From: Haliea alexandrii
Lineage (GTDB): Bacteria; Pseudomonadota; Gammaproteobacteria; Pseudomonadales; Halieaceae
Direction of reading: 5' to 3'
Length of the DNA: 64,000 bases
Assembly (NCBI RefSeq): GCF_003719295.1
Contig: NZ_RFLW01000001.1
Location: 1,754,955 to 1,818,954, forward strand
The notes beneath the pieces are model-generated. The model was not told the origin of the DNA and ran no database searches. It worked only from the letters and a program-made list of their open reading frames with translations. Both the position numbers and the translations under genes were made by a program. This document shows positions 14,221-28,406 of the stretch, one piece after another; within the stretch, counting starts at the first letter, position 1; each line of letters starts with the position of its first letter.

Positions 14221-15420
14221 CTAGCCCAGTGATGCCACGCTTTTGAGCACCAGCCGCACCAGCTCCGCCTGCCTCGAGACGCCGGTTTTGGCGAAGATGG
14301 ACTTGAGCTGGGCGCGCGCGGTGTGCTGGGAGATGTTCTGTGCCTCCGATACCTCGGCGAGGCTGAGCCCGCGAGACAGGAGAATGGCGAGGTTGGCCTC
14401 GGCCGGCGTGAGGTCGAACAGTTGCCCCAGTGTGCCCTGGGAGCTCGGTTCGTTGAGGTCCGGGTCGGAAATGAACACGGCGACACAGGGGCTGGACTGG
14501 CCCTCACCCCACTCGGAAACCGGCACCGGGCGCAGTACTAGGCCCAGCTGTGCCCGTTCGCCGCCACGCGGCACCCGCAGGGCGCGGATCACCGAGGCCT
14601 CGCCGCGATGCAGCGCCTTGATGATGGTCTCCAGCGCGGTTTGCAGCTCGCGGTTCTTGTCCCGATTTTCAATGACCAGATGTTGTCCGCGTATGCTGAG
14701 CCCGTTGTCATCCTCCAGCAGCGCCCGCGCGATGGTGTTGGCACTCAGCACGCGCCCCTGTTCATCGAGGATGATAGTGGCCACCGCCAGCTGCTCGACG
14801 GCCCCGGCATACAAGTTGCGCTCTGAAGCGGTGCGCCCGAGCGTGGCGTAAAGCTGGATGGAGAGGCGCAGGTGAGGGGCAATACGGGCCAGAACCGCGC
14901 GCTCATCGGCACTGAACGACGCCTCCTCGTGGCGCCGTGAGAAGCGCAGGCGGGCGAGCATGCCACCGGGCTCAACGGTGTCCAGGCCGAGTATGCGGAA
15001 CAGGCCGGCAGATTTCAGGTAGTGCTCGTAATACTCCGAGGCGACCAGTTCTGCATCGCTGAGAATGTCCTCCAGTGCCACCACCCGGTCTGGGGGCAGG
15101 TTGACGAAGGGGTCCAGCGCAAAGAACTGTTCGCGGTAGGCCGTGACCTCCCAGTCGGCGGGGTCCGACAGGGCTTTTGCCGCCCCCAGATCTGCTGCTG
15201 GCCGCACGCTGTTGAGAATCACGCCGCGGTCATCTTCTGCCGGAGGACGCAACACCAGCGACACAACCTGGCAATCGATCAGTTTGCGCAGCAGGGGCAG
15301 AGCCGATGACCAGGGCGGATTTTCCAGCGGTCCGCGATAGAGCGCGGCCACCAGCGCATCGTAGGCAGCCGGTACCGTGCCGACCGTAGCAACATCGAGC
15401 GGATCACTCCGCGCATTCAT
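14221..15420 (-). CDS. LuxR-family transcriptional regulator with N-terminal sensor region
   Basis: 399 residues. The last 65 form a LuxR/GerE helix-turn-helix (LTPAEANLAILLSRGLSLAE, ending ARAQLKSIFAKTGVSRQAEL). The preceding part looks PAS-like around residues 215-310 (AVATIILDEQGRVLSANTIA), and the first 200 residues are an unassigned sensor-like region. There is no acyl-homoserine-lactone domain and no receiver Asp, so the signal is unknown. Its ATG overlaps the stop of the upstream DUF1631-GGDEF-EAL gene (ATGA), so the two are made together. This suggests a link between a c-di-GMP-related protein and transcription. Confidence 0.85.
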   Translation of the reverse strand: MNARSDPLDVATVGTVPAAYDALVAALYRGPLENPPWSSALPLLRKLIDCQVVSLVLRPPAEDDRGVILNSVRPAADLGAAKALSDPADWEVTAYREQFFALDPFVNLPPDRVVALEDILSDAELVASEYYEHYLKSAGLFRILGLDTVEPGGMLARLRFSRRHEEASFSADERAVLARIAPHLRLSIQLYATLGRTASERNLYAGAVEQLAVATIILDEQGRVLSANTIARALLEDDNGLSIRGQHLVIENRDKNRELQTALETIIKALHRGEASVIRALRVPRGGERAQLGLVLRPVPVSEWGEGQSSPCVAVFISDPDLNEPSSQGTLGQLFDLTPAEANLAILLSRGLSLAEVSEAQNISQHTARAQLKSIFAKTGVSRQAELVRLVLKSVASLG

Positions 15421-18400
15421 TTTTCGATACTCGACAGATCCAGGGTGACCTCCGCGAGCGGTTTGGGGCGGCCGATGCCCCAGCCCTGCAGGTAGTCAAC
15501 GCCAATTTCCTGCAGTTTGCGGATGATGGCCTCGTTCTCCACCGATTCTGCAATCGTTTCCTGGCCCAGGAAGTGGGCGAGGTCATTGATCGAGCGCGCC
15601 ATGGCGTAATCGTTGCTGTCCTGGTCGATGCCGGTGATGAAACTGCCGTCGATCTTGACGTAGTCCACCGGCAGTTCGCGCAGGTAGTTGTGGCTGGCGA
15701 GGCCGGTGCCGAAGTCATCGATGGAGAACTTGCAGCCAATGTTGCGGAAGGCGCGTACGAAATCCGCCGCCTTGACCAGGTTGGAGATGGTGCCGGTTTC
15801 GGTGATTTCGAAGCACAGCCGGTTGGTGCCCACGCCGAATTCGGAGATCTGCTCGAACAGGAAGTCGAGGAATGCGTCATCGGTGACGCTGGCGCCAGAC
15901 AGGTTGATCGCCACACTGGGTACCACTTTCTGTGCATCCATCAGGGCGTTGATCCACATGAAGGCTTCGCGCACGACCCAGCGGTCTACCAACGTCATGA
16001 TGCCGTGACGCTCAGCGGACGTAATGAAGCTCTGGGGGGAGCTCAGTTTGCCAGTCTTGTCACGCATGGCCAGCAGCAGTTCATAGTGACGCGAGGTGGA
16101 GCTTTCGCCGGTCATTGCGGTCTTGACGATAGGCTGCGCTCGCAGCATGAAGCGCTCGCTGGAAAGCTCGTCCTCCAGTGCCTTGCGGGAGCGGCGTTGT
16201 TCACTGCGCAAGGTGCGCACGGTTTCTTCGCTGGCCTCGTACAGATGCACGCGGTTGCGGCCGAGCTGTTTGGCCTGGGTGACCGCTGCCTGCGCGTTGG
16301 CCATGACCGAGTCGACGTCCGGGCTGTAGTCCTGAATGGGCGCAATACCCACCGATACCGTGAAGCTGACCTTTTCGCCGTCGATGTCCACGCTGCCATC
16401 GGCGATATCGCTGCGTACCTGCTCCGCGAGTGTCTGCGCCTTCTCGATATTGCCATCCACCAGCAGTATGGCAAAGGTGTCTTCCTCCAGGCGCGCGGAA
16501 GACGTTTTGCGCCCGTGGAGCTGTGCCAGGAGCCGAGAGAATTCAAGCAGTACCTGGTCGCCGCTGATGCGGTCGTAGATGTCGTTGACCAGGCCGAAGC
16601 GGTCGATGTTGAGCAGCAGTATGGCGTGTTGCGAGTGGTGGGTGTGTGCATGGCGCAGCGCACGCCCGACCTGGTCGATGAAGATGTCGCGGTTGATCAG
16701 GCGGGTAAGAGGGTCGTGGTTGCGGGCGAAGCTCAGCGTGCGCTGTACGTCCTCCAGCGTGTTATACATGCTCTGGTCGACAACCGAAAGACGATCGGCA
16801 GGCGCCGGGGGCTGCGCACCACGGCTGAGCTGGCGCGCCAGCTGCACCTGGTTGAACTCCGCGACTTTCTGGCCGCGGTCGTTGACGAACAGGAAGCGCT
16901 CCCGGTCGTCGCTGATCCAGGCCAACTGGATGCGATGCTTGACCCCGGCCTTGTCGCGGTAGTTCAGCCACATGCCTTTGCCCAGGGTATCAACGCGCTG
17001 CACCCAGCGGCGCAGCCGTCGCGTTTTTGCCAGGCGTTCCTCCCTTGTGGGTTGTGCCTCGCCGTCCGTATCCTCGTCTGCTTCGCTGTCGCGCTGCAGC
17101 ATGTCCACGGTTATGTCGCCGGCAAGCACGCCGCGCAGCTCATCGAACACGGTCTGAATGGAGACGTTGCCGGGCAGGGCACTGCTGATCTGCTGTTCCA
17201 TCAGGTCGATGAAGGGCTCGGCTTCAAGGCTCCTTTCAACGCTCTGGTCTTCACTGACCTCGCCACGCTGCTGCTCGAGCAACCAGGTGGACAGCAGCTG
17301 CAGCGTGCGTCTCTGCTCTTCCCATTCATCGCTCTCCACGCCCTGTTTGATATGGGTCAGTACCATCAGGTCGCGCCAGCCGTGGTCAACCAGGTCCTGT
17401 AAAATGCGTGGGATTTGCCCCGGGGGCAGGCACTCGCGCACCACATTTTCCACCGCGTCGCGTGCGCCGCGCAGTTTTTCCTTGCCTTCCTGAGTCTTGA
17501 CCACCCGCTCGATATTGCGCGCGTGGGCTTGCGACTGCTGCCTGGACAGTCGCTCCACATGCTCCAGTGCTGCAGCGAATACGGCGGAATCACCGTCATA
17601 GTCGCGGACGATAGCCGCGACTATTTCGGCAACGCGGCTCTCCAGCATGCGGTTGGGGAAATTGGCCGAGCTGCCCAGCGCGGCCAGTTTATCGACCAGC
17701 GTGCGTGCCGGGTGGTCTGGCTGCAGGAAAAACTGCGGTTCGGTGAGCGCCAGCCGCGCCAACGGCAATTGCAGGTCGCTCAGTACAGGCTGCAGTTCGC
17801 TGCTGACATCGAGTTGCGAGCGAATGGTCTCGAACAGGCTGTCGATCATCTCGAGCTGATTACGGTTTTCCGCGCTCAGCGCCGCATCATCTTTCAATTC
17901 CGGTGTCTGTCCCAGCAGAAAGTCCGCAACGGCTGTTTCACCGGCTGCGGCCTGGGGTGACTTGCCGATCTGCTGCAACTGGGCGAGGGCGTTGATCAAC
18001 TTCTGGGTATCGAGCACCGCGCCCGCTTGTTGCGGCTGCTGTTCCACGTCACGCTTGAAATTCAGTGCGTTGATAACCGATGAGTACAGCTGCTGTGGGC
18101 GACTCTCCGCACCGCCACCCCCGTTCGCGCTGCTGCCTCCCATCCCCGCGTCCTGCTGGCGCCGGCGTGTACGATCAGGACGCTCATCTGCCTTGCGCAG
18201 CAGTGAGCCGTTGGCCAGGATCTCACCCTCGAGTTCCGGCCGGATTCCCGCCTGCTCAAGAATCTCGTTCAAGTGCCGGTACAGGCTGTCGAGGTTGCGC
18301 ACGAAGTGCCGGGCAAAAAGGTCATAGATGCGCTGGGTGAGCTGTTGCGGTACGCGGTACTCCTCGAGTACCAGTTGCAGCGATCGTGCCAGCTGTGCCA

Positions 18401-18845
18401 CGTGCTCGGGCAGGCGCAGTTTCAGCGGGTCGGTCTGCACCAGCTCTGCTACACGGATTTGCAGGGCTTCCATGCCAATGCGGTGCAGGTCCTCGCCAAC
18501 GTGGGCGAGGCGGTCAACTGCGAGATAGTTCTCGAAGGTGTGCAGGTCCACCAGGTCCATCGTTCCGCTTTCATCCATGACATCCCACCAGTGATGCAGC
18601 TCGGCGGCGGGCGGGGTCAGGTTGTCGTGGAAGTTGCGGTAATGGCCGAGGAAGCTGGCCAGCATGCCGCGCTGGTGGATTTGCAGAATGCCGATGGCAT
18701 CGGTGACCTGGGTGCGCGAGATCTGGCCCTGGCGCGGTGAGGGCGATGAGCGCAGGAGGTTCTCCGTGAGCTCTTCCAGAAAACGCGCAAAGCGGCGCTC
18801 CAGTTCGCGTTCACTGATCTGGCGGTAGGTGTCAAACGCGTTCAA
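15417..18845 (-). CDS. DUF1631-GGDEF-EAL protein, probable c-di-GMP phosphodiesterase
   Basis: About 1142 residues. The N-terminal two-thirds resembles DUF1631 (DLMVLTHIKQGVESDEWEEQ; later a PilZ-like stretch near RIQLAWISDDRERFLFVNDR). A GGDEF domain follows, with the signature changed to EEDTF at residues 787-791, so cyclase activity is unlikely. The EAL domain keeps its catalytic set: ELL for EAL, AINLSGASV, CFEITETG, SIDDFGTGLASHNYL, VKIDGSF, ESVENE and LQGWGIGRP. It should therefore hydrolyse c-di-GMP, with the GGDEF part perhaps binding GTP. I chose TTG at 18845 (AGAGAGG five bases ahead); a GTG at 18902 is open but has no ribosome site. Coupled to the LuxR gene. Confidence 0.88.
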   Translation of the reverse strand: MNAFDTYRQISERELERRFARFLEELTENLLRSSPSPRQGQISRTQVTDAIGILQIHQRGMLASFLGHYRNFHDNLTPPAAELHHWWDVMDESGTMDLVDLHTFENYLAVDRLAHVGEDLHRIGMEALQIRVAELVQTDPLKLRLPEHVAQLARSLQLVLEEYRVPQQLTQRIYDLFARHFVRNLDSLYRHLNEILEQAGIRPELEGEILANGSLLRKADERPDRTRRRQQDAGMGGSSANGGGGAESRPQQLYSSVINALNFKRDVEQQPQQAGAVLDTQKLINALAQLQQIGKSPQAAAGETAVADFLLGQTPELKDDAALSAENRNQLEMIDSLFETIRSQLDVSSELQPVLSDLQLPLARLALTEPQFFLQPDHPARTLVDKLAALGSSANFPNRMLESRVAEIVAAIVRDYDGDSAVFAAALEHVERLSRQQSQAHARNIERVVKTQEGKEKLRGARDAVENVVRECLPPGQIPRILQDLVDHGWRDLMVLTHIKQGVESDEWEEQRRTLQLLSTWLLEQQRGEVSEDQSVERSLEAEPFIDLMEQQISSALPGNVSIQTVFDELRGVLAGDITVDMLQRDSEADEDTDGEAQPTREERLAKTRRLRRWVQRVDTLGKGMWLNYRDKAGVKHRIQLAWISDDRERFLFVNDRGQKVAEFNQVQLARQLSRGAQPPAPADRLSVVDQSMYNTLEDVQRTLSFARNHDPLTRLINRDIFIDQVGRALRHAHTHHSQHAILLLNIDRFGLVNDIYDRISGDQVLLEFSRLLAQLHGRKTSSARLEEDTFAILLVDGNIEKAQTLAEQVRSDIADGSVDIDGEKVSFTVSVGIAPIQDYSPDVDSVMANAQAAVTQAKQLGRNRVHLYEASEETVRTLRSEQRRSRKALEDELSSERFMLRAQPIVKTAMTGESSTSRHYELLLAMRDKTGKLSSPQSFITSAERHGIMTLVDRWVVREAFMWINALMDAQKVVPSVAINLSGASVTDDAFLDFLFEQISEFGVGTNRLCFEITETGTISNLVKAADFVRAFRNIGCKFSIDDFGTGLASHNYLRELPVDYVKIDGSFITGIDQDSNDYAMARSINDLAHFLGQETIAESVENEAIIRKLQEIGVDYLQGWGIGRPKPLAEVTLDLSSIEK

Positions 18846-19057
18846 GCGAACCTCTCTGGCGCGGCCAACGGCCACTGTTGACCATCGTGCCGCGTATAAC
18901 ACTGCAACAGTGTTGCGCGCATTGCGTTCAGGTTGGCAGGTGACATGTCAGCTCTGATTCGGATGGGGAAACTCCCGCAGCACGGCGACCTTCAGGGCGC
19001 AGTATACCTGCACAGCACACAGCGACAAGCGCTGGTGTGGTGTGCTGAGGGCCCTCG

Positions 19058-21061
19058 CTAGGGTGTATTGGATGCCTTTTCCGGCAGCGCGAAGGCCATG
19101 ATGGCATCCCCCGCTGTCGACCAGCCGTGGCCGCCGGCCGCCAGCACGACGAATTGCCGCCCGCCCACAGTGGCCCGGTAGCTGAGAGGCGTCGCGTTCC
19201 CGGTGTAGGGCAGATCGTATTGCCACAGCTGCTCGCCAGTTTCGCTGGAGAAAGCGCGCAGGTACGAGTCGGTGGTAGCGGCAATGAAGATGACACCCGA
19301 CGCCGTCGTCAGAGGCCCACCGGCGTTGGGGGAGCCCGCTTCGAACCAGAAAGGCCACGGCGCCTGGCCGCGCGTGGTGCCCAGTGGCCGCGTCCAGGCG
19401 ACCTCACCCGAGCGCAGATCCACTGCCGTCAGGCTGCCCCACGGGCGCGGATTGCAGGGGGCACCCAGGGGCGAGAACAGCGGGAAACGGCGCACGCCAT
19501 AGGGGCTACCCTGCATCGCATAGTGTTCCAGTGGATACCCTGCCTCCGGGTTGAGCGCATCGTATTCCGCGCGGGGAAGCAGTTGCACTACCGTTGCCAG
19601 GTGCATCTGGTTGGCGATTAGCAGGCCGCGCTCGGGATCAATGCTGACGCCTCCCCAATTGATGCCGCCGGTGGTGCTGGGGTAGAGCACACTGCCCTCC
19701 AGGCTGGGGGGCGTGAACATACCTTCCGAGCGGTAGCGTGCGAGCTCCTTCTGGCAGGCAAGCTTGTCCAGCCACACCAGTCCGTCCATGTGTTCGGGCC
19801 CCAGTTTCGCGGGTTGGTGCAGCGGGCCGGGATGTGTGGGGAACGGCTGAGTGGGGGAGAGGGTCTCACCCGGTACACCGCCCTGTGGTACGGGACGCTC
19901 CTCCACCGGATACAGCGGCTCGCCAGTTTGTCGGTCGAGCAGGAATACGTGCCCCATCTTGGTGGCCTGTGCCAGCCCGGCGCGTCCACCTCCGACCCCG
20001 GGAATACGGAACAGGGTGGGCTGTGATGCCACATCATAGTCCCACACGTCGTGGTGCACGGTCTGGAAGTGCCAGCGCACTTTTCCGCTGTCGGCATCCA
20101 GCGCGACGACGGAAGAGCCGTAAGCGTCTATGCCATCGCGTTCCCCGCCAAACAGGTCCGGAGCCGGGTTGCCGGTGGGTACATAGATCAGGCCACGTTC
20201 AGGGTCGCCGGCGATGGGCGCCCAGACATTGGGGCTGCCCTGGTGGTAGCGCGCGCGGCCGAGGCTGTCGCGATGCCGCTCACGATAGGCTGCGGTGACC
20301 GGTTCCCAGGCCCACGCCAGCTGCCCCGTACGCACGTCGAACGCGCGCACGACACCCGAGGGAACATCCTTGCGCTCGTTGTCCGGAACCAGCGCGCCAA
20401 TCACCGCCAGGTCATTCTGGATCCAGGGCGGTGAGGTCGGGTAGTACACGAGGGGGTCGGCACCGCTGATATCTTCTTTCAGGGAAACACGTCCTGCGTT
20501 GCCAAAATCGGCACAGGGCTCACCGCTGCGCGCATCCAGGGCGATCAACTCGGCATCGCGCGTGCCATAGAGGATGCGCGCGCCACAGCTCGCGTCCGCC
20601 TCGGCAGGCTCCGCTGCGCGCCACAGGGCCACGCCGCGGCACACCACCGGGTACATGCCGCTGCGGCGGTTTTCCACCTCTGGATCAAACACCCAGCGCT
20701 CTTCACCGGTTTCGGCGTTCAGGGCGAATACGCGCCCGAACGGGGTGCAGTAGTAGAGCGTGTCGCCGTCAACCAGGGGTGTCACCTGCAGTGAGCTCAG
20801 GCCCCATTCACCGCTGCCGTCACTGAAGTCCCCAGAATGGTGGCTCCAGGCGAGTTCCAGCTGGTTGACGTTGTGCGGGGTAATGTCGGTGAGTTCCGCG
20901 TGCTGTCCGGCGTCCTTGCCGCCATAGTGGGGCCAGCCCTGGGCCGCTGCGCCGGTCTTAGCCGAGGCCACACCGGTGGGTGCGCCCTCGCTTGCGGCAT
21001 GGCAGCCTGTCGCCAGGGTAAAGGCGGTCAGGAGTGCGGTCAGGCTGCGCGGCGTCTTCAT
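19058..21061 (-). CDS. PQQ-dependent dehydrogenase (quinoprotein glucose/quinate dehydrogenase-like), exported
   Basis: 667-residue eight-bladed propeller quinoprotein. N-terminal export signal ends near LATGCHA (Cys20), a possible lipoprotein site. Unlike membrane glucose dehydrogenases it lacks the five N-terminal helices. Family landmarks: WPHYGGKDAGQHAELTDI at the start, TPLVDGDTLYYCTPFGRVFA, DSGKVRWHFQTVHHDVWDYD, GMFTPPSLEGSVLYPSTTGG, NQMHLATVVQLLPR and LTTASGVIFIAATTDSYLRA. The substrate, probably a sugar, cyclic acid or alcohol, cannot be read from sequence. No PQQ biosynthesis genes lie in the window. Its ATG overlaps the stop of the upstream SDR gene, so the two may oxidise the same compound stepwise. 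Confidence 0.9.
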   Translation of the reverse strand: MKTPRSLTALLTAFTLATGCHAASEGAPTGVASAKTGAAAQGWPHYGGKDAGQHAELTDITPHNVNQLELAWSHHSGDFSDGSGEWGLSSLQVTPLVDGDTLYYCTPFGRVFALNAETGEERWVFDPEVENRRSGMYPVVCRGVALWRAAEPAEADASCGARILYGTRDAELIALDARSGEPCADFGNAGRVSLKEDISGADPLVYYPTSPPWIQNDLAVIGALVPDNERKDVPSGVVRAFDVRTGQLAWAWEPVTAAYRERHRDSLGRARYHQGSPNVWAPIAGDPERGLIYVPTGNPAPDLFGGERDGIDAYGSSVVALDADSGKVRWHFQTVHHDVWDYDVASQPTLFRIPGVGGGRAGLAQATKMGHVFLLDRQTGEPLYPVEERPVPQGGVPGETLSPTQPFPTHPGPLHQPAKLGPEHMDGLVWLDKLACQKELARYRSEGMFTPPSLEGSVLYPSTTGGINWGGVSIDPERGLLIANQMHLATVVQLLPRAEYDALNPEAGYPLEHYAMQGSPYGVRRFPLFSPLGAPCNPRPWGSLTAVDLRSGEVAWTRPLGTTRGQAPWPFWFEAGSPNAGGPLTTASGVIFIAATTDSYLRAFSSETGEQLWQYDLPYTGNATPLSYRATVGGRQFVVLAAGGHGWSTAGDAIMAFALPEKASNTP

Positions 21062-21840
21062 GAGGCGCTGGTTGTATTGGCTGCCTGCAGGAAGGCCGGT
21101 TTTTCTCCGCCGCCATGCACCGCAATGCTGGTCCCGCTGATGTATGACGCCAGCGGCGAGGCCAGGAACAGGCAGGCATCGCCGATGTCCTCGGGCACTG
21201 CCATCCGGCCCAGGGGTATGGTGCGGCCCACCGCAGCCACGCCTTCGGCATCGCCGTAGTGCAGGTGTGACTGCTCGGTTTCAACCAACCCCGCGATGAT
21301 GGCATTGATCCGCACCAGCGGCCCCCACTCCACCGCCAGCGATTGGCCCAGGTTGACCAGGCCAGCCTTGGCTGCACCGTAGGCTGCGGTGCCGGGTGAC
21401 GGCCGGATGGTGCTGACGCTGGCAATGTTGATGATACTGCCGCCGGATGCCTGCGCCTGCATGACCCGGTTGGCGAGTTGTGCGGCGTGCAGCGCCGACG
21501 TGAGGTTCAGCGCAATGATCGACTCGTGAAAACGCGGTGACACCGTAGCCGCCTCTGCTTCGGGTGCGCCACCGGCGTTGTTCACCAGCACGTCCAGGCG
21601 TCCGAAGCGGGCTACCACCGCATCGACCATCGCTTCCAGTTGCTCGTATTTGCGCACATCACAGGCCACGAAAAAGGCCTCGCGCCCGCCCGCAGCGGGC
21701 AATTGCTCGGGTGGATTACGGCCACAGATAGCGACCTCCGCGCCGGCGGCCATAAAGCGTTCGCTGATGCCGCGGCCAACGCCTTTGCCGCCGCCTGTCA
21801 CCAGCACGACACGACCGTTGAAATCCATGGGGTTCTGCAT
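21058..21840 (-). CDS. SDR family NAD(P)-dependent oxidoreductase
   Basis: Classical short-chain dehydrogenase, 260 residues from the ATG at 21840, which has AAGGAG nine bases ahead. Rossmann motif VTGGGKGVGRGI, structural NNAGG, catalytic Ser in NIASVSTIRPSPG and YGAAKAG (Tyr-x3-Lys). The end has GHxxGT-like YISGTSIAVHGG. Substrate unknown. It heads a two-gene transcript with the PQQ dehydrogenase and is divergent from the F420 operon across a 209-base gap. Confidence 0.92.
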   Translation of the reverse strand: MQNPMDFNGRVVLVTGGGKGVGRGISERFMAAGAEVAICGRNPPEQLPAAGGREAFFVACDVRKYEQLEAMVDAVVARFGRLDVLVNNAGGAPEAEAATVSPRFHESIIALNLTSALHAAQLANRVMQAQASGGSIINIASVSTIRPSPGTAAYGAAKAGLVNLGQSLAVEWGPLVRINAIIAGLVETEQSHLHYGDAEGVAAVGRTIPLGRMAVPEDIGDACLFLASPLASYISGTSIAVHGGGEKPAFLQAANTTSAS

Positions 21841-22049
21841 AGTTCGCTGCTCCTTGTAGCGCGTGGCGGACAACTTGTGATCGGCGTGTGAATTGCCTAA
21901 TATGCCTCGGCCTCGCGCATCCTAACCCGGTCACAGAAAAACGGGAAACCGCGATGGACAAGCGGCCAATTTCAGGCAAACAGAGGCGCCGTCGGTAGAC
22001 TTTGCTGAACTGCCTGCCTCTCCACCAAGCAATCAGGACGTAGATAGTT

Positions 22050-22733
22050 ATGACAACAGAATCTTTGCCGGTACTCGCCATTCTGGGCGGCACCGGCGAT
22101 CTGGGTACAGGTTTGGCACGGCGCTGGGCGCAGGCAGGCTATCGGGTCATCATCGGCTCGCGGACCGAAGAGAAGGCCGAGCAGGCTGCCAGTGATCTGC
22201 GCGAAGTGATGACGGCGCGCGGTGTGTCCGCCGCCGTGGAGTCCATGGAAAACCTCGCGGCAGCAGAGGCCGCCGACATCGTCGCGATCACAGTCCCCTT
22301 CAGCCACCAGAAGAGCACGCTGGAACTGGTTGCGCCGGCACTGCAGGGCAAGATCCTGATTGACGTCACTGTGCCCCTGGTGCCGCCGCGTGTTGCCCGT
22401 GTGCAGTTGCCACCGGAGGGCAGTGCCGGACAGATTGCACAGGACCTGCTGGGCGAGACGGTGGATGTTGTGTCGGCGTTCCAGAACGTCGCTGCCGCGC
22501 ATTTGCAGGATGAAGGTGCCGTGGACTGCGATGTGCTGGTGTGTGGCAACAAGAAAGAAGCCCGCGCCGCCGTTATTACGCTGGTGGAAGCGGCGGGACT
22601 GCGTGGTTTCCACGCCGGCATGATCGCCAACGCCGCTGCTGCCGAGGCGCTGACCTCGGTTTTGATCACCATCAACAAGCAGTACAGCTGCCATGCCGGT
22701 ATTCGGATTTCCGGCCTGGACAGCCATGGATGA
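22050..22733 (+). CDS. npdG: NADPH-dependent F420 reductase (Fno)
   Basis: Moves hydride between NADPH and coenzyme F420. 227 residues with the Fno fingerprint: ILGGTGDLGTGLARRWAQAG, then VIIGSRTEEKAE, whose SR pair binds the NADP 2'-phosphate; later ITVPFSHQKSTLE, VDVVSAFQNVAAAHLQ and DCDVLVCGNKKEA. The length is normal. It is the first of four overlapping plus-strand genes that otherwise make F420, which is strong context support. Its stop overlaps the cofE start (ATGA). Confidence 0.93.
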   Translation: MTTESLPVLAILGGTGDLGTGLARRWAQAGYRVIIGSRTEEKAEQAASDLREVMTARGVSAAVESMENLAAAEAADIVAITVPFSHQKSTLELVAPALQGKILIDVTVPLVPPRVARVQLPPEGSAGQIAQDLLGETVDVVSAFQNVAAAHLQDEGAVDCDVLVCGNKKEARAAVITLVEAAGLRGFHAGMIANAAAAEALTSVLITINKQYSCHAGIRISGLDSHG

Positions 22734-23497
22734 GTGCACGGCTTGAACTGATTCCCCTGGAGGGCTTTCCCGAAGTCGCGCCAGGGGATGACCTCGCCAC
22801 ACTGATCCTCGCCAGCCTGGAGCACAACAGTTTGCAACTGCAGGCCGGCGATGTGCTGGTGCTGGCGCAAAAAATCGTCTCCAAGGCCGAAAACCGCTAT
22901 CGCCGCCTGGCCGAAGTCGAGCCGGGCGAACGCGCGTGCGAACTTGCGCGTCAGGCGGACAAGGACCCTCGCCTGGTAGAGCTCATCCTGCGCGAGTCCC
23001 GCGAGGTTTTGCGGGTACGCAAGGGGGTGATTATCGTCGAGCACCGCGAAGGCTATATTCACGCCAACGCCGGCATCGACCGCTCCAATATACAGAATGA
23101 CGCCGAAGATCCGCGCGTACTGCTGCTGCCGCAGGACTGCAATGCGTCCGCTGCGCGGTTGCGTGAGGCCCTCGGTGCGCGCTGCGGCATCGCGCCGCAG
23201 ATCATTATCAACGACAGTTCGGGCAGGGCCTGGCGGGTGGGGACTGTGGGTCTGGCGCTGGGTTGTGCGGGGCTCGACCCGCTGTTCAACCAGATAGGCG
23301 ATTGCGATCGTTTTGGTAACCGCCTGGAAGTGACGGAGCCTGCCGTGGCCGACGAGTTGGCGGCTGCGGCTTCCCTGGTACAGGGGCAGGCAGCCGAGGG
23401 CCTGCCCGTTGTGCTGGCCCGCGGTGCACGGTTGCGCCCTGCTGCGGGTGACGCGCGCACACTGCTGCGACCTCGTGAACAGGACATGTTCCGGTGA
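22730..23497 (+). CDS. cofE: Coenzyme F420-0:L-glutamate ligase CofE
   Basis: Adds glutamates to F420-0 with GTP. From ATG 22730 the protein has 255 residues and matches the CofE fold: LIPLEGFPEVAPGDDL, LQAGDVLVLAQKIVSKAENR, GYIHANAGIDRSNI, and IIINDSSGRAWRVGTVGLAL, with the acidic residues that bind metal and GTP. It stops where actinobacterial FbiB would go on into a nitroreductase-like FMN domain; that domain is absent. The ends overlap npdG and cofD by four bases each. Confidence 0.95.
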   Translation: MSARLELIPLEGFPEVAPGDDLATLILASLEHNSLQLQAGDVLVLAQKIVSKAENRYRRLAEVEPGERACELARQADKDPRLVELILRESREVLRVRKGVIIVEHREGYIHANAGIDRSNIQNDAEDPRVLLLPQDCNASAARLREALGARCGIAPQIIINDSSGRAWRVGTVGLALGCAGLDPLFNQIGDCDRFGNRLEVTEPAVADELAAAASLVQGQAAEGLPVVLARGARLRPAAGDARTLLRPREQDMFR

Positions 23498-24450
23498 CGC
23501 GGCTGGCAGGGCAGGTGTTGGCGCTCTCCGGCGGTGTGGGCGGCGCGAAACTGTGCCTCGGCCTGAGCGATTGCCTGCCTCCCGGGCACTTGCATATCGC
23601 CTGCAATACGGGCGACGATTTCCAGCATCTGGGGCTGACGATCTGCCCGGACATCGACACCGTGCTTTACACACTGTCCGGGCGCAGTGACACAGCCCAG
23701 GGCTGGGGACTCGCGGGAGAGACCTGGCACGTGCTGCAGGCGCTGGAGGGCCTGGAGGGTGACACCTGGTTTCGGCTGGGCGATCGCGACCTGGCAACGC
23801 ACCTCTGGCGAGCCGGCCAACTGTCGGCTGGTGTTTCCCTGTCGGCGGTTACCGCAGAGCTTGCGCGGCGGCTGGGCGTGGCGGCGTTCGTCTACCCCAT
23901 GAGCGACGATCCGGTGCCAACCCAGGTGCAGACGGACGAGGGCGAGCTGGCATTCCAGACATATTTTGTGCGCGAGCAGTGCCGCCCGCAGGTCAGGGGC
24001 TTCCGCTTTCAGGGCCTGGATCAGGCCCGTCTGCAACCGGAGCTCAAGGCGCTCTGCAAGGGTGAGAGTCTGGCCGGGGTGATTATTTGTCCTTCCAATC
24101 CCTTTGTGAGCATCGACCCCATGCTGCAGCTGGACAATTTCTGGCAGTCCCTGCGAGAGTGTGCGGTCAAGGTGGTAGCAGTAGCGCCTATCGTCGCCGG
24201 TCAGGCACTGAAGGGGCCTGCGGCAAAGATGCTGGCGGAACTCGGTCTGCCGGTGACAGCACTGGGCGTGGCAGAACATTACGCGCGGCACTATCCCGGC
24301 CTGGTCACCACGTTTGTGCTGGATCACAGTGACGCTACACTGGCGCCAGATATTGCGGCGCTCGGAATGGAGGTGCAGGTGAGATCAACGATCATGCGGG
24401 AGCGCGCGGCAAAGCAGGCGCTGGCGAACGACTGCCTGGAGCTGTTGTGA
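23494..24450 (+). CDS. cofD: 2-phospho-L-lactate transferase CofD
   Basis: Joins the activated phospho-acid to FO, making F420-0 (or its dehydro form). 318 residues with CofD motifs in order: LSGGVGGAKLCLGL, IACNTGDDFQHLGL, CPDIDTVLYTLSG, VYPMSDDPVPTQVQTDEG and ICPSNPFVSIDPML. GTG start at 23494 overlaps the cofE stop (GTGA); the end overlaps the next gene the same way. Whether it takes lactate-, enolpyruvate- or glycerate-derived donors cannot be told by eye. Confidence 0.95.
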   Translation: MTRLAGQVLALSGGVGGAKLCLGLSDCLPPGHLHIACNTGDDFQHLGLTICPDIDTVLYTLSGRSDTAQGWGLAGETWHVLQALEGLEGDTWFRLGDRDLATHLWRAGQLSAGVSLSAVTAELARRLGVAAFVYPMSDDPVPTQVQTDEGELAFQTYFVREQCRPQVRGFRFQGLDQARLQPELKALCKGESLAGVIICPSNPFVSIDPMLQLDNFWQSLRECAVKVVAVAPIVAGQALKGPAAKMLAELGLPVTALGVAEHYARHYPGLVTTFVLDHSDATLAPDIAALGMEVQVRSTIMRERAAKQALANDCLELL

Positions 24451-27400
24451 CGGCACCGGTGCACGTGGTTCTGCCGTTGAAGCGTCTGGACACGGCGAAG
24501 AGCCGGCTCGCTGAGACGCTGGCGCCGGTGCAACGTCGCGACCTGGTGCTGGCGATGGCGGGTGATGTGCTGACCGTTCTGGCGGCACACCCGGCAGTGG
24601 CCTCGATTACCGTCATCTCCGATGAACCGGAAGCAGCAACGCTGGTGACGGTGGACAAGGCGCGATTGTGGTCCGAGTCCGGTTTGCTGGCGGCCACCGC
24701 TGGCTCCGTGGCCAGCGGCGCGATGGCATCTTCTCCCCTGCAGGCACTGAACCAGGTGCTCACCGCAGCCTGTCAGCGCTTACGTTCGGCATTGCAGGAC
24801 CCCGATGCCCTGTTGATGGTCATGCACGCCGACCTGCCTTTCCTGGGCGCTGCCGACCTCGATGCGGCACTGGCGTGCCCGGAAGCCGCCAGTGGCCTGC
24901 TGGTCGGCAGCGATGAAGCGGGTACCGGCACCAACCTGATGTTGTTCAAGGCCCGGCTAGCGCCGCAGTTTGCGTTCGGTACCGGCTCTTGCGCGCTGCA
25001 CCTGGGCTGGGCACGCGCTCAGCAGCTAGCGGCGGGGGCGTTGCTGCGCGCCGGTTTGGCACGTGACATCGATACGCCCTTGGATATTGAACGCCTGTGC
25101 GCCTCGACTCATGCAGAGCTGGGTGCACGCACCCGCGACTGGCTCGCTCAATACGCCTCGGCGCGTCTCCGTAGCAGTGCAGAGGGCAGTACTGCGGCGC
25201 GCGTCGGCCTGGCCGCCTTGCGTGCCGATCTGATGACCGGCGCGCTCCCCTCTGAGGCGGATTGCCTGTCTCTGGCTGAATGCACTGACACCCCCGACCT
25301 CGTGGCGCTGGCGGGTGAGCTGCGCGATCGCGGGCACGGGCATGTCGTGACCTACTCGCGCAAGGTCTTCGTGCCGCTCACCCGGCTGTGCCGGGACGTC
25401 TGCCATTACTGCACCTTCGCAACGACACCGAAGCAGGTTACCTCACCCTATCTCAGCGTGGATGAAGTTCTGGCGCTGTGCCGGGAGGGCGCTGCCCAGG
25501 GTTGCCAGGAGGCGTTGCTGACTCTGGGTGAGAAGCCCGAGCTGCGCTACCGCGCCGCGCGCGAAGCGCTCGCCGAGATGGGCTTTGCCACCACGCTGGA
25601 ATACGTGGCTCATGTGGCCGGACGCATTCTGGACGAAACCGGCTTGTTGCCTCATATCAATGCGGGCTGCATGACCGCAGAGGAGATCGCGGCGCTGCGC
25701 CCCGTCAGCGCCTCCATGGGCATCATGCTGGAATCCGCTTCCGAGCGTCTGTGTACGAAGGGGATGCCGCACTACGGTTCCCCGGACAAGCTACCTGCGG
25801 AACGTCTGCGCACCCTGCAATTGGCCGGTGAGGCTGCCGTGCCATTTACCTCCGGTATTCTGATTGGCATCGGCGAAACGCGCCGTGAACGCATCGAGTC
25901 CCTGCTCGCGCTGCGCCGCGTGCACCTGCAGCACGGGCACCTGCAGGAGGTGATCGTCCAGAATTTCCGTGCCAAGCCCGGTACCCTCATGGCCCGTGCG
26001 CCAGAGCCCGACCTTGAAGACCTGCTCTGGACCCTGGCGGTGGCGCGCATTATTTTCGGCGCCAGCATGAACCTGCAGGCGCCGCCCAATCTCAGCCCCG
26101 GTGTGTTGCCGCAGTTGCTCGCGGCCGGCATTAATGATTGGGGTGGCGTATCACCGGTTACGCCGGACCACGTCAATCCGGAAGCGCCCTGGCCACACCT
26201 TGAGCACCTCGCGCGGGAAACCGCGGCGGCGGGCAAGTTTCTGGAACAACGGCTCACCATCTACCCTGCGTATGTGCAGCAACCGGAACAGTGGCTGGAC
26301 CCGGCGCTGCGAACCCCGGTGCTGAGGCAGCAGGATGCAGGCGGGTTTGCGCGCCGCGATGGCTGGGTGCCCGGTGAGGAGGCGCCGCTGCCAGCGGTAG
26401 AGGCAGAATTGCTGTCGGCGCCGCAGAGTGCCTTTGCGGTGTCATCCGAGCTGCGCGCGGTGGTGGAGCGTTGCGAGCGCGCGGAGCCGCTCGGTGAGGC
26501 CGATGTGGTGCGGTTGTTCGCGGCGCGCGGCGCCGAGTTCCGTTTTGTGGTGGATGCCGCCGATCGCCTGCGCCGCGCAGGCTGTGGTGATGACGTGAGC
26601 TACGTCATCAACCGCAACATCAACTACACCAATGTCTGTTATTTCAAGTGCCAGTTCTGCGCCTTCTCCAAGGGCAAGCACACGGAAGAGCTGCGCGGCC
26701 GGCCCTATGACATCAGCGCTACGGAGATCGCCCGGCGTTGCCGGGAGGCGTGGGCGCGAGGTGCCACTGAAGTGTGCATGCAGGGGGGCATCCATCCGGC
26801 CTACACCGGCCAGACGTATCTGGACATTCTGGCCACGGTGCGCGCCGCCACGCCTGATATGCATATTCATGCATTCTCCCCGCTGGAGGTGTGGCAGGGG
26901 GCGGCGACCCTGGGCCTGACTCTGCTGGATTACCTGCGTCAGCTGAAGGCGGCAGGCCTCGGCACTCTGCCGGGCACCGCAGCGGAAATCCTCGACGACG
27001 ATGTGCGCGCCACCCTCTGCCCGGACAAGCTGAACACGGCGCAGTGGCTGGAGGTGATGGAGACGGCCCACAGCCTCGGGTTTCGTACCACAGCCACGAT
27101 CATGTACGGTCATATAGAGCAACCGCAGCACTGGGCGCGCCACCTGTTACAGCTACGCGCAGTACAGGCCCGTACGGGTGGTTTTACCGAACTGGTGCCG
27201 CTACCGTTTGTGCACATGGAAGCCCCCATGTACCTGCGTGGCAGGGCTCGCCGCGGTCCTACCTTCCGCGAGGCGGTGCTGATGCATGCGGTATCGCGGC
27301 TGGTGCTGAACGGCTTCATCGACAACATTCAGACGTCCTGGGTGAAAATGGGCGAGGCGGGGGTGGATGTGTGCCTGAATGCCGGCGCCAACGACCTTGG

Positions 27401-27701
27401 TGGCACGCTGATGAACGAGAGCATTACCCGCGCTGCCGGCGCCGCGCACGGTCAGGAGTGGGCGCCCGATGTCATGGAGGCGCGGATTCACGCGCTGGGG
27501 CGTCATCCCCGCTTGCGCACCACTCTGTACGGCGATGCAGCCGCCGAGCGGCGCACCGTGGCCAACCGGGCAATTCCCCTGGTGCCCATAGAGAACGCCG
27601 ATGCTGGCAAGCACGCCCGGGATAAACGGCTCTTGCCGCACGTCGATGTCCCGGCCGCTATGCCGCCGGAGCAGGTGGTGATGATGGCGGCCTGCAACTG
27701 A
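24447..27701 (+). CDS. CofC-CofG-CofH fusion: guanylyltransferase plus FO synthase
   Basis: 1084 residues with three F420 enzymes in one chain. Residues 1 to about 230 are CofC: VVLPLKRLDTAKSRLAETL, MHADLPFLG (near 126-133), GTGTNLMLF and DIDTPLDIE; this part activates the phospho-acid with GTP. CofG follows, with radical-SAM cysteines C315, C319 and C322 in CRDVCHYCTFA. CofH comes last, with C731, C735 and C738 in CYFKCQFCAF. CofG plus CofH build FO from tyrosine and 5-amino-6-ribitylaminouracil. FbiC-type CofG-CofH fusions are known; CofC at the front is uncommon as far as I know. No frameshift is seen. GTG start overlaps cofD. Confidence 0.93.
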   Translation: MTAPVHVVLPLKRLDTAKSRLAETLAPVQRRDLVLAMAGDVLTVLAAHPAVASITVISDEPEAATLVTVDKARLWSESGLLAATAGSVASGAMASSPLQALNQVLTAACQRLRSALQDPDALLMVMHADLPFLGAADLDAALACPEAASGLLVGSDEAGTGTNLMLFKARLAPQFAFGTGSCALHLGWARAQQLAAGALLRAGLARDIDTPLDIERLCASTHAELGARTRDWLAQYASARLRSSAEGSTAARVGLAALRADLMTGALPSEADCLSLAECTDTPDLVALAGELRDRGHGHVVTYSRKVFVPLTRLCRDVCHYCTFATTPKQVTSPYLSVDEVLALCREGAAQGCQEALLTLGEKPELRYRAAREALAEMGFATTLEYVAHVAGRILDETGLLPHINAGCMTAEEIAALRPVSASMGIMLESASERLCTKGMPHYGSPDKLPAERLRTLQLAGEAAVPFTSGILIGIGETRRERIESLLALRRVHLQHGHLQEVIVQNFRAKPGTLMARAPEPDLEDLLWTLAVARIIFGASMNLQAPPNLSPGVLPQLLAAGINDWGGVSPVTPDHVNPEAPWPHLEHLARETAAAGKFLEQRLTIYPAYVQQPEQWLDPALRTPVLRQQDAGGFARRDGWVPGEEAPLPAVEAELLSAPQSAFAVSSELRAVVERCERAEPLGEADVVRLFAARGAEFRFVVDAADRLRRAGCGDDVSYVINRNINYTNVCYFKCQFCAFSKGKHTEELRGRPYDISATEIARRCREAWARGATEVCMQGGIHPAYTGQTYLDILATVRAATPDMHIHAFSPLEVWQGAATLGLTLLDYLRQLKAAGLGTLPGTAAEILDDDVRATLCPDKLNTAQWLEVMETAHSLGFRTTATIMYGHIEQPQHWARHLLQLRAVQARTGGFTELVPLPFVHMEAPMYLRGRARRGPTFREAVLMHAVSRLVLNGFIDNIQTSWVKMGEAGVDVCLNAGANDLGGTLMNESITRAAGAAHGQEWAPDVMEARIHALGRHPRLRTTLYGDAAAERRTVANRAIPLVPIENADAGKHARDKRLLPHVDVPAAMPPEQVVMMAACN

Positions 27702-27704
27702 GCC

Positions 27705-28406
27705 GTGGCTGCTTCGATACAGCTTGAAGCAAGCTGGCTGAAGCACCTGGCGCCTGAGTTTGAAAAGCCCTATATGCGGGAACTCAGGGCGTTTCTGGGT
27801 GCGGAGAAAGCCGCCGGGGTGCAGGTGTTTCCCCCCGGCTCCGAAATCCTCAACGCCTTTGCCCACACCCCGCTGGAGCGTACCCGGGTCGTTATTCTGG
27901 GACAGGATCCGTATCACGGCCCCGGTCAAGCTCACGGCCTGTGTTTCTCTGTGCGACCGGGCGTCGCTCCGCCACCATCCCTGCAGAATATCTTCAAGGA
28001 AATCGAGCGTGACCTCGGCATCGGGCGACCGGCGCACGGTAGCCTCACCCGCTGGGCCGATCAGGGCGTGCTGCTGTTGAACAGTGTGCTGACGGTCGCG
28101 GCAGGCCGCGCGGCCTCACACCAGGGCAAGGGATGGGAGCAGTTCACCGACCGGGTGGTGGAGCTGGTCAACCGCGAGTGTAGCGGCGTCGTCTTCATGC
28201 TGTGGGGCGGCTACGCCCAGCGCAAGGGCGCCGCGATAGACCGCGAGCGTCATTGTGTGCTCACGGCCCCACACCCCTCACCGCTGAGCGCATACCGCGG
28301 CTTTATCGGCTGTGGGCATTTCAGTGCAGCGAATGCGTGGTTGTCGGCACACGGCCAGCCCCCCGTCGACTGGCAGCTTCCACCTCAACCAAACGGCACC
28401 GAATAG
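27705..28406 (+). CDS. ung: Uracil-DNA glycosylase
   Basis: Family-1 UDG that removes uracil from DNA. 233 residues with all signatures: [20 protein letters not shown] (catalytic Asp), LLLNSVLTV, and [19 protein letters not shown] (catalytic His loop). It starts at a GTG three bases past the CofC-CofGH stop with no clear ribosome site, so translation is probably coupled to the F420 operon. Its last 22 bases overlap the convergent ygfZ. Confidence 0.96.

Follow-up and report, generated by a model that had tools for sequence, protein, structure and literature searches.

One of the F420 enzymes closest to the protein described here is FbiC, the two-domain FO synthase (PRK09234), which is itself a fusion, CofG then CofH, and carries both CX3CX2C motifs. 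CofC/FbiD (TIGR03552; structures 6bwh, 7p97, and 2i5e) is a separate protein in relatives with split genes, where its open frames are mostly 200-320 aa. According to passages of PMC8498797, CofC/FbiD relies on its CofD/FbiA partner for activity, and the product that it activates is unstable. Excerpts of PMC6450877 speculate that the GTP site of CofC forms only on contact with the CofD partner, and excerpts of PMC8764529 report that CofC holds its product tightly. Another fusion among F420 enzymes, FbiB (CofE with a nitroreductase domain), is known from mycobacteria, as described in part of PMC6450877. The window analyzed here, a 64,000-nucleotide stretch of a Halieaceae genome, encodes a protein with a complete CofC ahead of FbiC, whereas FbiC is CofG plus CofH only in the portion of PMC8498797 that describes it.

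A three-domain gene in an F420 operon

The fusion is the last gene of a tightly packed operon on the + strand, npdG-cofE-cofD-cofCGH:

22050-22733, + strand: npdG, NADPH-dependent F420 reductase, first gene of the operon (TIGR01915, 207.4 bits)
22730-23497, + strand: cofE, F420-0:glutamate ligase, without a nitroreductase domain (TIGR01916, 259.3 bits)
23494-24450, + strand: cofD, 2-phospho-L-lactate transferase (TIGR01819, 263.9 bits, cut-off 257.45); its stop overlaps the fusion start (GTGA)
24447-27701, + strand: cofC-cofG-cofH fusion gene, 1084 aa, GTG start, 4-nt overlap with the cofD stop
27705-28406, + strand: ung, uracil-DNA glycosylase (NCBIfam matches), next gene downstream, outside the F420 pathway

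The cofE/cofD and cofD/fusion junctions are 4-nt GTGA overlaps. The npdG/cofE junction is likewise a 4-nt overlap, given the chosen cofE start: the TIGR01916 match is on a longer frame (22541-23497), from residue 69, and the start was read as an ATG overlapping the npdG stop. Beyond the operon, an SDR gene (21058-21873) separates npdG from a gene on the opposite strand (19058-21061, - strand) for a 667-aa PQQ-dependent dehydrogenase-like protein, whose TIGR03074 match (681.9) is below the cut-off of 832.65 and covers only profile positions 126-783 of 783. Also on the - strand, 15417-18902 encodes a 1161-aa protein in which DUF1631 precedes GGDEF and EAL domains. The whole genome has 16 luciferase-like PF00296 matches over cut-off, and these are many candidate F420-dependent oxidoreductases.

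The fusion gene is a single uninterrupted open frame, and a first-pass annotation of the sequence had its frame, length, three domains, and motif positions right. NCBIfam matches, all over their cut-offs, place CofC at residues 7-219, CofG at 302-623, and CofH at 684-1029:

24459-25103, + strand: CofC guanylyltransferase domain, residues about 5-219
24822-24848, + strand: MHADLPFLG motif, residues 126-134; D129 corresponds by alignment to metal-binding D116 of Mycobacterium tuberculosis FbiD and is invariant in fused proteins
24921-24947, + strand: GTGTNLMLF motif, residues 159-167; T162 corresponds by alignment to FbiD T148
25104-25250, + strand: fast-evolving linker (residues 220 to about 268) that connects CofC to the FbiC part
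25350-26315, + strand: CofG radical-SAM domain, residues 302-623 (TIGR03550, 496.1 bits, cut-off 213.35)
25389-25412, + strand: CofG Fe-S cysteines C315, C319, and C322, invariant in 19 fused proteins
26496-27533, + strand: CofH radical-SAM domain, residues 684-1029 (TIGR03551, 565 bits, cut-off 374.1)
26637-26660, + strand: CofH Fe-S cysteines C731, C735, and C738, invariant in 19 fused proteins

The CofC match (TIGR03552, 109.5 bits against a curated cut-off of 105) places the N-terminal part in the CofC family. CofG and CofH share one chain, as in an FbiC FO synthase, and the CofGH model PRK09234 scores 1144.7 bits (cut-off 1018). Both CX3CX2C radical-SAM motifs are present, and all six cysteines are kept in 19/19 fused proteins (the window's own included); the FbiC part is predicted to make FO. 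As many of the relatives are metagenome bins, an assembly or sequencing error that deleted a stop codon could be suspected. However, CofC and CofG share one frame in 8/8 genomes searched from the window's genus (its own included), in records titled Seongchinamella unica strain GH4-78 and Mangrovimicrobium sediminis strain SAOS 164, and in single-contig assemblies (G084, G068, and G206). We take such a slip to be refuted by the agreement within the genus and the single-contig genomes, and give it practically no credence.

The CofC sites are intact. The eight substrate or metal contacts of M. tuberculosis FbiD (K17, L92, D116, T148, G163, S166, D188, and D190; the Mg and PEP residues are listed in PMC8764529) are all kept by alignment, as K12, L101, D129, T162, G178, S181, D207, and D209, although the fused-protein alignment does not show T162 as invariant or nearly so. 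The domain is under purifying selection (dN/dS 0.11-0.23) and evolves several-fold faster than the FbiC part. In a predicted model, it shares the fold of solved CofC/FbiD proteins, with 7p97 and 6bwh tied as top structural matches. It could still be proposed that the CofC part is a decaying passenger whose job is done by another nucleotidyltransferase; its TIGR03552 margin is only 4.5 bits, and the best stretch of the Pfam CofC match (41.7, gathering score 22) spans only residues 6-60. Set against this are the eight kept residues, the purifying selection, and the genome scan, in which no second CofC exceeded the cut-off and the next listed TIGR03552 match reached 38.4 bits. A passenger is consequently very improbable, and the degenerate CofC that the first-pass annotation had named as a way for its reading to fail is not what alignment and selection reveal.

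Repeated changes between fused and split genes

Among 93 loci with both CofC and CofG (CofC at least 150 bits, CofG above 400 bits, one locus per genome), 31 are fused and 62 split, which is no prevalence, as loci were partly picked for being fused. The fused loci span six families of one order. Loci without a CofG match and truncated ones, e.g., the fused but cut G339 and L164, were left out of this set. Genome scans reached from the family to the phylum level. Within Halieaceae, CofC was over the cut-off in 88/140 genomes, 20 of them fused (one, G067, is cut at a contig end). In the order, it was over the cut-off in 96/390 genomes, 13 of which are Halieaceae; among the remaining 83, 11 have CofC in a frame of at least 1010 aa, with CofG in the same frame in 11/11, and G339 adds one further fused but cut frame. 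CofC passed the cut-off in 15/369 genomes of the class and 4/398 sampled genomes of the phylum, and in each scan, the sole fused one was the window's own genome. Among the 80 named loci in the matches listed, which are no census, both parts were found in 61 (3 fused and 58 split, including L216, with CofC 4.2 kb off), and no CofC was found in 19.

Some candidates were set aside. Long CofC frames in G442, G319, G988, G008, and G298 were rejected as fusions and regarded as chance open frames; they held no further F420 domain (NCBIfam, E 1e-6), with one weak related-family match in G988. The matches in G047 fall in a 1088-aa frame with a stop, CofC being in a 269-aa frame, and it was not counted as fused. 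One genome of genus g12 (G070; L254 = G070:C4:1-9000, and L255) encodes a fused CofC-FbiC within a full operon; the same contig holds, at a distance of about 40 kb, another npdG-cofC-fbiC set, with the genes separate and fbiC running to the contig end. Two metagenome bins titled Klebsiella pneumoniae (L185 and L186) have FbiC with 57 and 71% identity to Pseudomonadales ones and are probably mislabelled.

In all 62 split loci, cofC precedes fbiC on the same strand, and the cofC stop and the CofG match are 82 to 286 nt apart. This order is not universal in the order, as at least 11 loci outside the 93-locus set have CofH sequence ahead of CofC (L064, L066, L068, L070, L072, L082, L083, L101, L118, L119, and L121), where a fusion by joining neighbors is therefore impossible. 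Our proposal, in line with the cofC-then-fbiC order of all split Halieaceae loci read that have both genes, is that neighboring cofC and fbiC would have been joined in frame several times, with some reversals possible.

The fused or split state has changed several times among the relatives, so that the joint was made or lost repeatedly. On a CofC plus CofG tree without linker columns, no fewer than 10 changes of the label are required, 7 of them forced by starred branches, in a quick search with several long branches flagged. A single clade of all fused rows was rejected by the AU test (p-AU 5.25e-5). With two long rows removed, a carefully built tree of 53 rows from Halieaceae and f47 requires 7 changes (5-7 over the bootstraps), and starred branches force 4 of these. 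Around the window's genus, a split member of another genus (G024) forms a polytomy with two groups of fused members of the window's genus, one with linkers of 48 aa and the other with linkers of 76 aa. The trees do not separate fusion from fission; repeated gain is favored because relatives outside the order (the class and phylum matches over the cut-off) are unfused and because the linkers of fused proteins align poorly among themselves.

The linker, the junction, and the proposed function

The first-pass annotation had suggested channelling of the two precursors that CofD joins as one possibility, and for this the linker offers no support. Between domain matches, its length varies from 47 to 119 aa among fused loci (two rows with meaningless values left out), its dN/dS is the highest of seven regions in 6/7 species pairs, and the AF2 model breaks there, with pLDDT <50 at residues 243-252. 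Even the halves of FbiC appear to pass their intermediate by diffusion, according to part of the review PMC8498797. The CofC and FbiC domains are most likely independent modules on a flexible tether. Internal initiation close to the former fbiC start could also make two proteins from the one frame, and in-frame start codons do occur in the linker, e.g., an ATG at residue 263. However, the scan of the window's gene showed a Shine-Dalgarno-like piece before 0/7 internal start codons, and such a piece was found in 3/17 validly examined fused genes (19 were scanned; G053 and G277 were left out for a misplaced anchor), leaving internal initiation a slim chance.

The fusion is specific to one junction of the operon. 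Over distinct operons, cofC/fbiC is fused in 31/142, and no fusion was found at cofD/cofC (0/132), cofE/cofD (0/111), or npdG/cofE (0/55). Split CofC proteins run a median of 34 aa past the conserved part, and a median of 143 nt separates the cofC stop from the start of the CofG domain; at the other two measured junctions, the medians are 0 and 4 aa, and 2 nt (CofD and CofE tails measured with full-length queries from the window). Of the three measured, cofC/fbiC alone has spare residues on both sides, and 4-nt overlaps in the right frame are similarly frequent at all three (35/111, 41/132, and 40/111). A dispensable CofC tail and an N-terminal extension of FbiC would let a small indel join both enzymes unharmed, and the joins probably recurred because, of the three junctions measured, only this one has such residues on both sides. 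Permissive geometry is the simplest reading of the specificity, which could also be due to selection for the joint; the origin of the joins would seem to have been neutral or weakly selected. Within this conserved operon, the state has changed repeatedly at a single junction while three neighboring ones serve as internal controls, which makes it testable whether fusions spread for kinetic benefit or by mere junction tolerance.

We consider it probable that the gene encodes a trifunctional F420 enzyme, made of neighbors joined by a fast-evolving linker, in which the modules act independently and their ratio is fixed. The N-terminal CofC would activate a phospho-acid of the phosphoenolpyruvate (PEP) or 2-phospho-L-lactate type with GTP, the C-terminal FbiC would make FO, and FO and the activated acid would be joined by CofD, whose gene lies immediately upstream and overlaps the fusion by 4 nt. 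That two branches of the F420 pathway are joined in one chain, as first annotated, agrees with the sequence, as does a fixed precursor ratio, a single chain implying 1:1:1 CofC:CofG:CofH. With independent modules on a flexible tether, the consequence would be this ratio and one translation start fewer, rather than substrate channelling. Since CofC needs CofD, the fusion also ties FO synthesis to the one CofD-dependent enzyme, CofD itself being separate and overlapping in the operon; such linkage would allow a CofD complex.

An alternative gives the tether a larger role, as an assembly platform that sets CofC beside the FO synthase, with CofD docking where FO is released. It draws on the reported CofD dependence of CofC (PMC8498797, in part), its tight product binding (PMC8764529, in part), and the several changes at cofC/fbiC against zero at the three other junctions; if true, both FO and the unstable GTP-activated intermediate would be captured locally. 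However, the linker evolves fast and its length varies, CofD is fused to its partner CofC in 0/132 junctions, spare residues are seen only at the fused junction of the three measured, and the portion of PMC8498797 on FbiC reports diffusion between its halves. We regard a platform as unlikely, though not negligible. We are similarly doubtful that joins were favored because the trifunctional chain draws CofD into a complex for F420-0 assembly, a convergent metabolon linking both branches in which FO and the unstable activated acid would meet without leaving the complex.

Comparison with known F420 enzymes

The CofC part of the trifunctional reading can be compared with the 3-phosphoglycerate (3PG)-type CofC of Mycetohabitans (7p97), whose fold it is predicted to share. 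In that enzyme, S162 of Mrhiz-CofC is needed for 3-phosphoglycerate (PMC8764529, in part); this serine is absent from the window's CofC, which by alignment has G178 there, as FbiD has G163. Were PEP the substrate, a dehydro-F420 reductase would still have to be assigned in this genome; in archaea, it is likewise unidentified according to part of PMC6450877. FbiB joins two late steps, whereas the window's CofE has no FbiB-type nitroreductase domain and TIGR03553 is without a match in the whole genome.

The first-pass annotation had allowed that the same fusion might already be described across many genomes. It is indeed found in many (31/93 loci), but no description of a CofC-CofG-CofH fusion was found in the literature text searched; protein-architecture databases were outside this search, and a mention elsewhere is possible. 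The fusion is thus recurrent and undescribed in the literature searched, and the enzymes themselves are already known. It is real and, going by its sequence, probably a working but mechanistically modest variant of them. Should this reading of the enzyme hold, both CofD precursors come from a single gene, which would be useful for F420 production in other hosts. While CofC/FbiD stands alone in split relatives, here it is the N-terminal part of a 1084-aa chain, and the fusion extends the two-domain view of bacterial FO synthase by a third domain.
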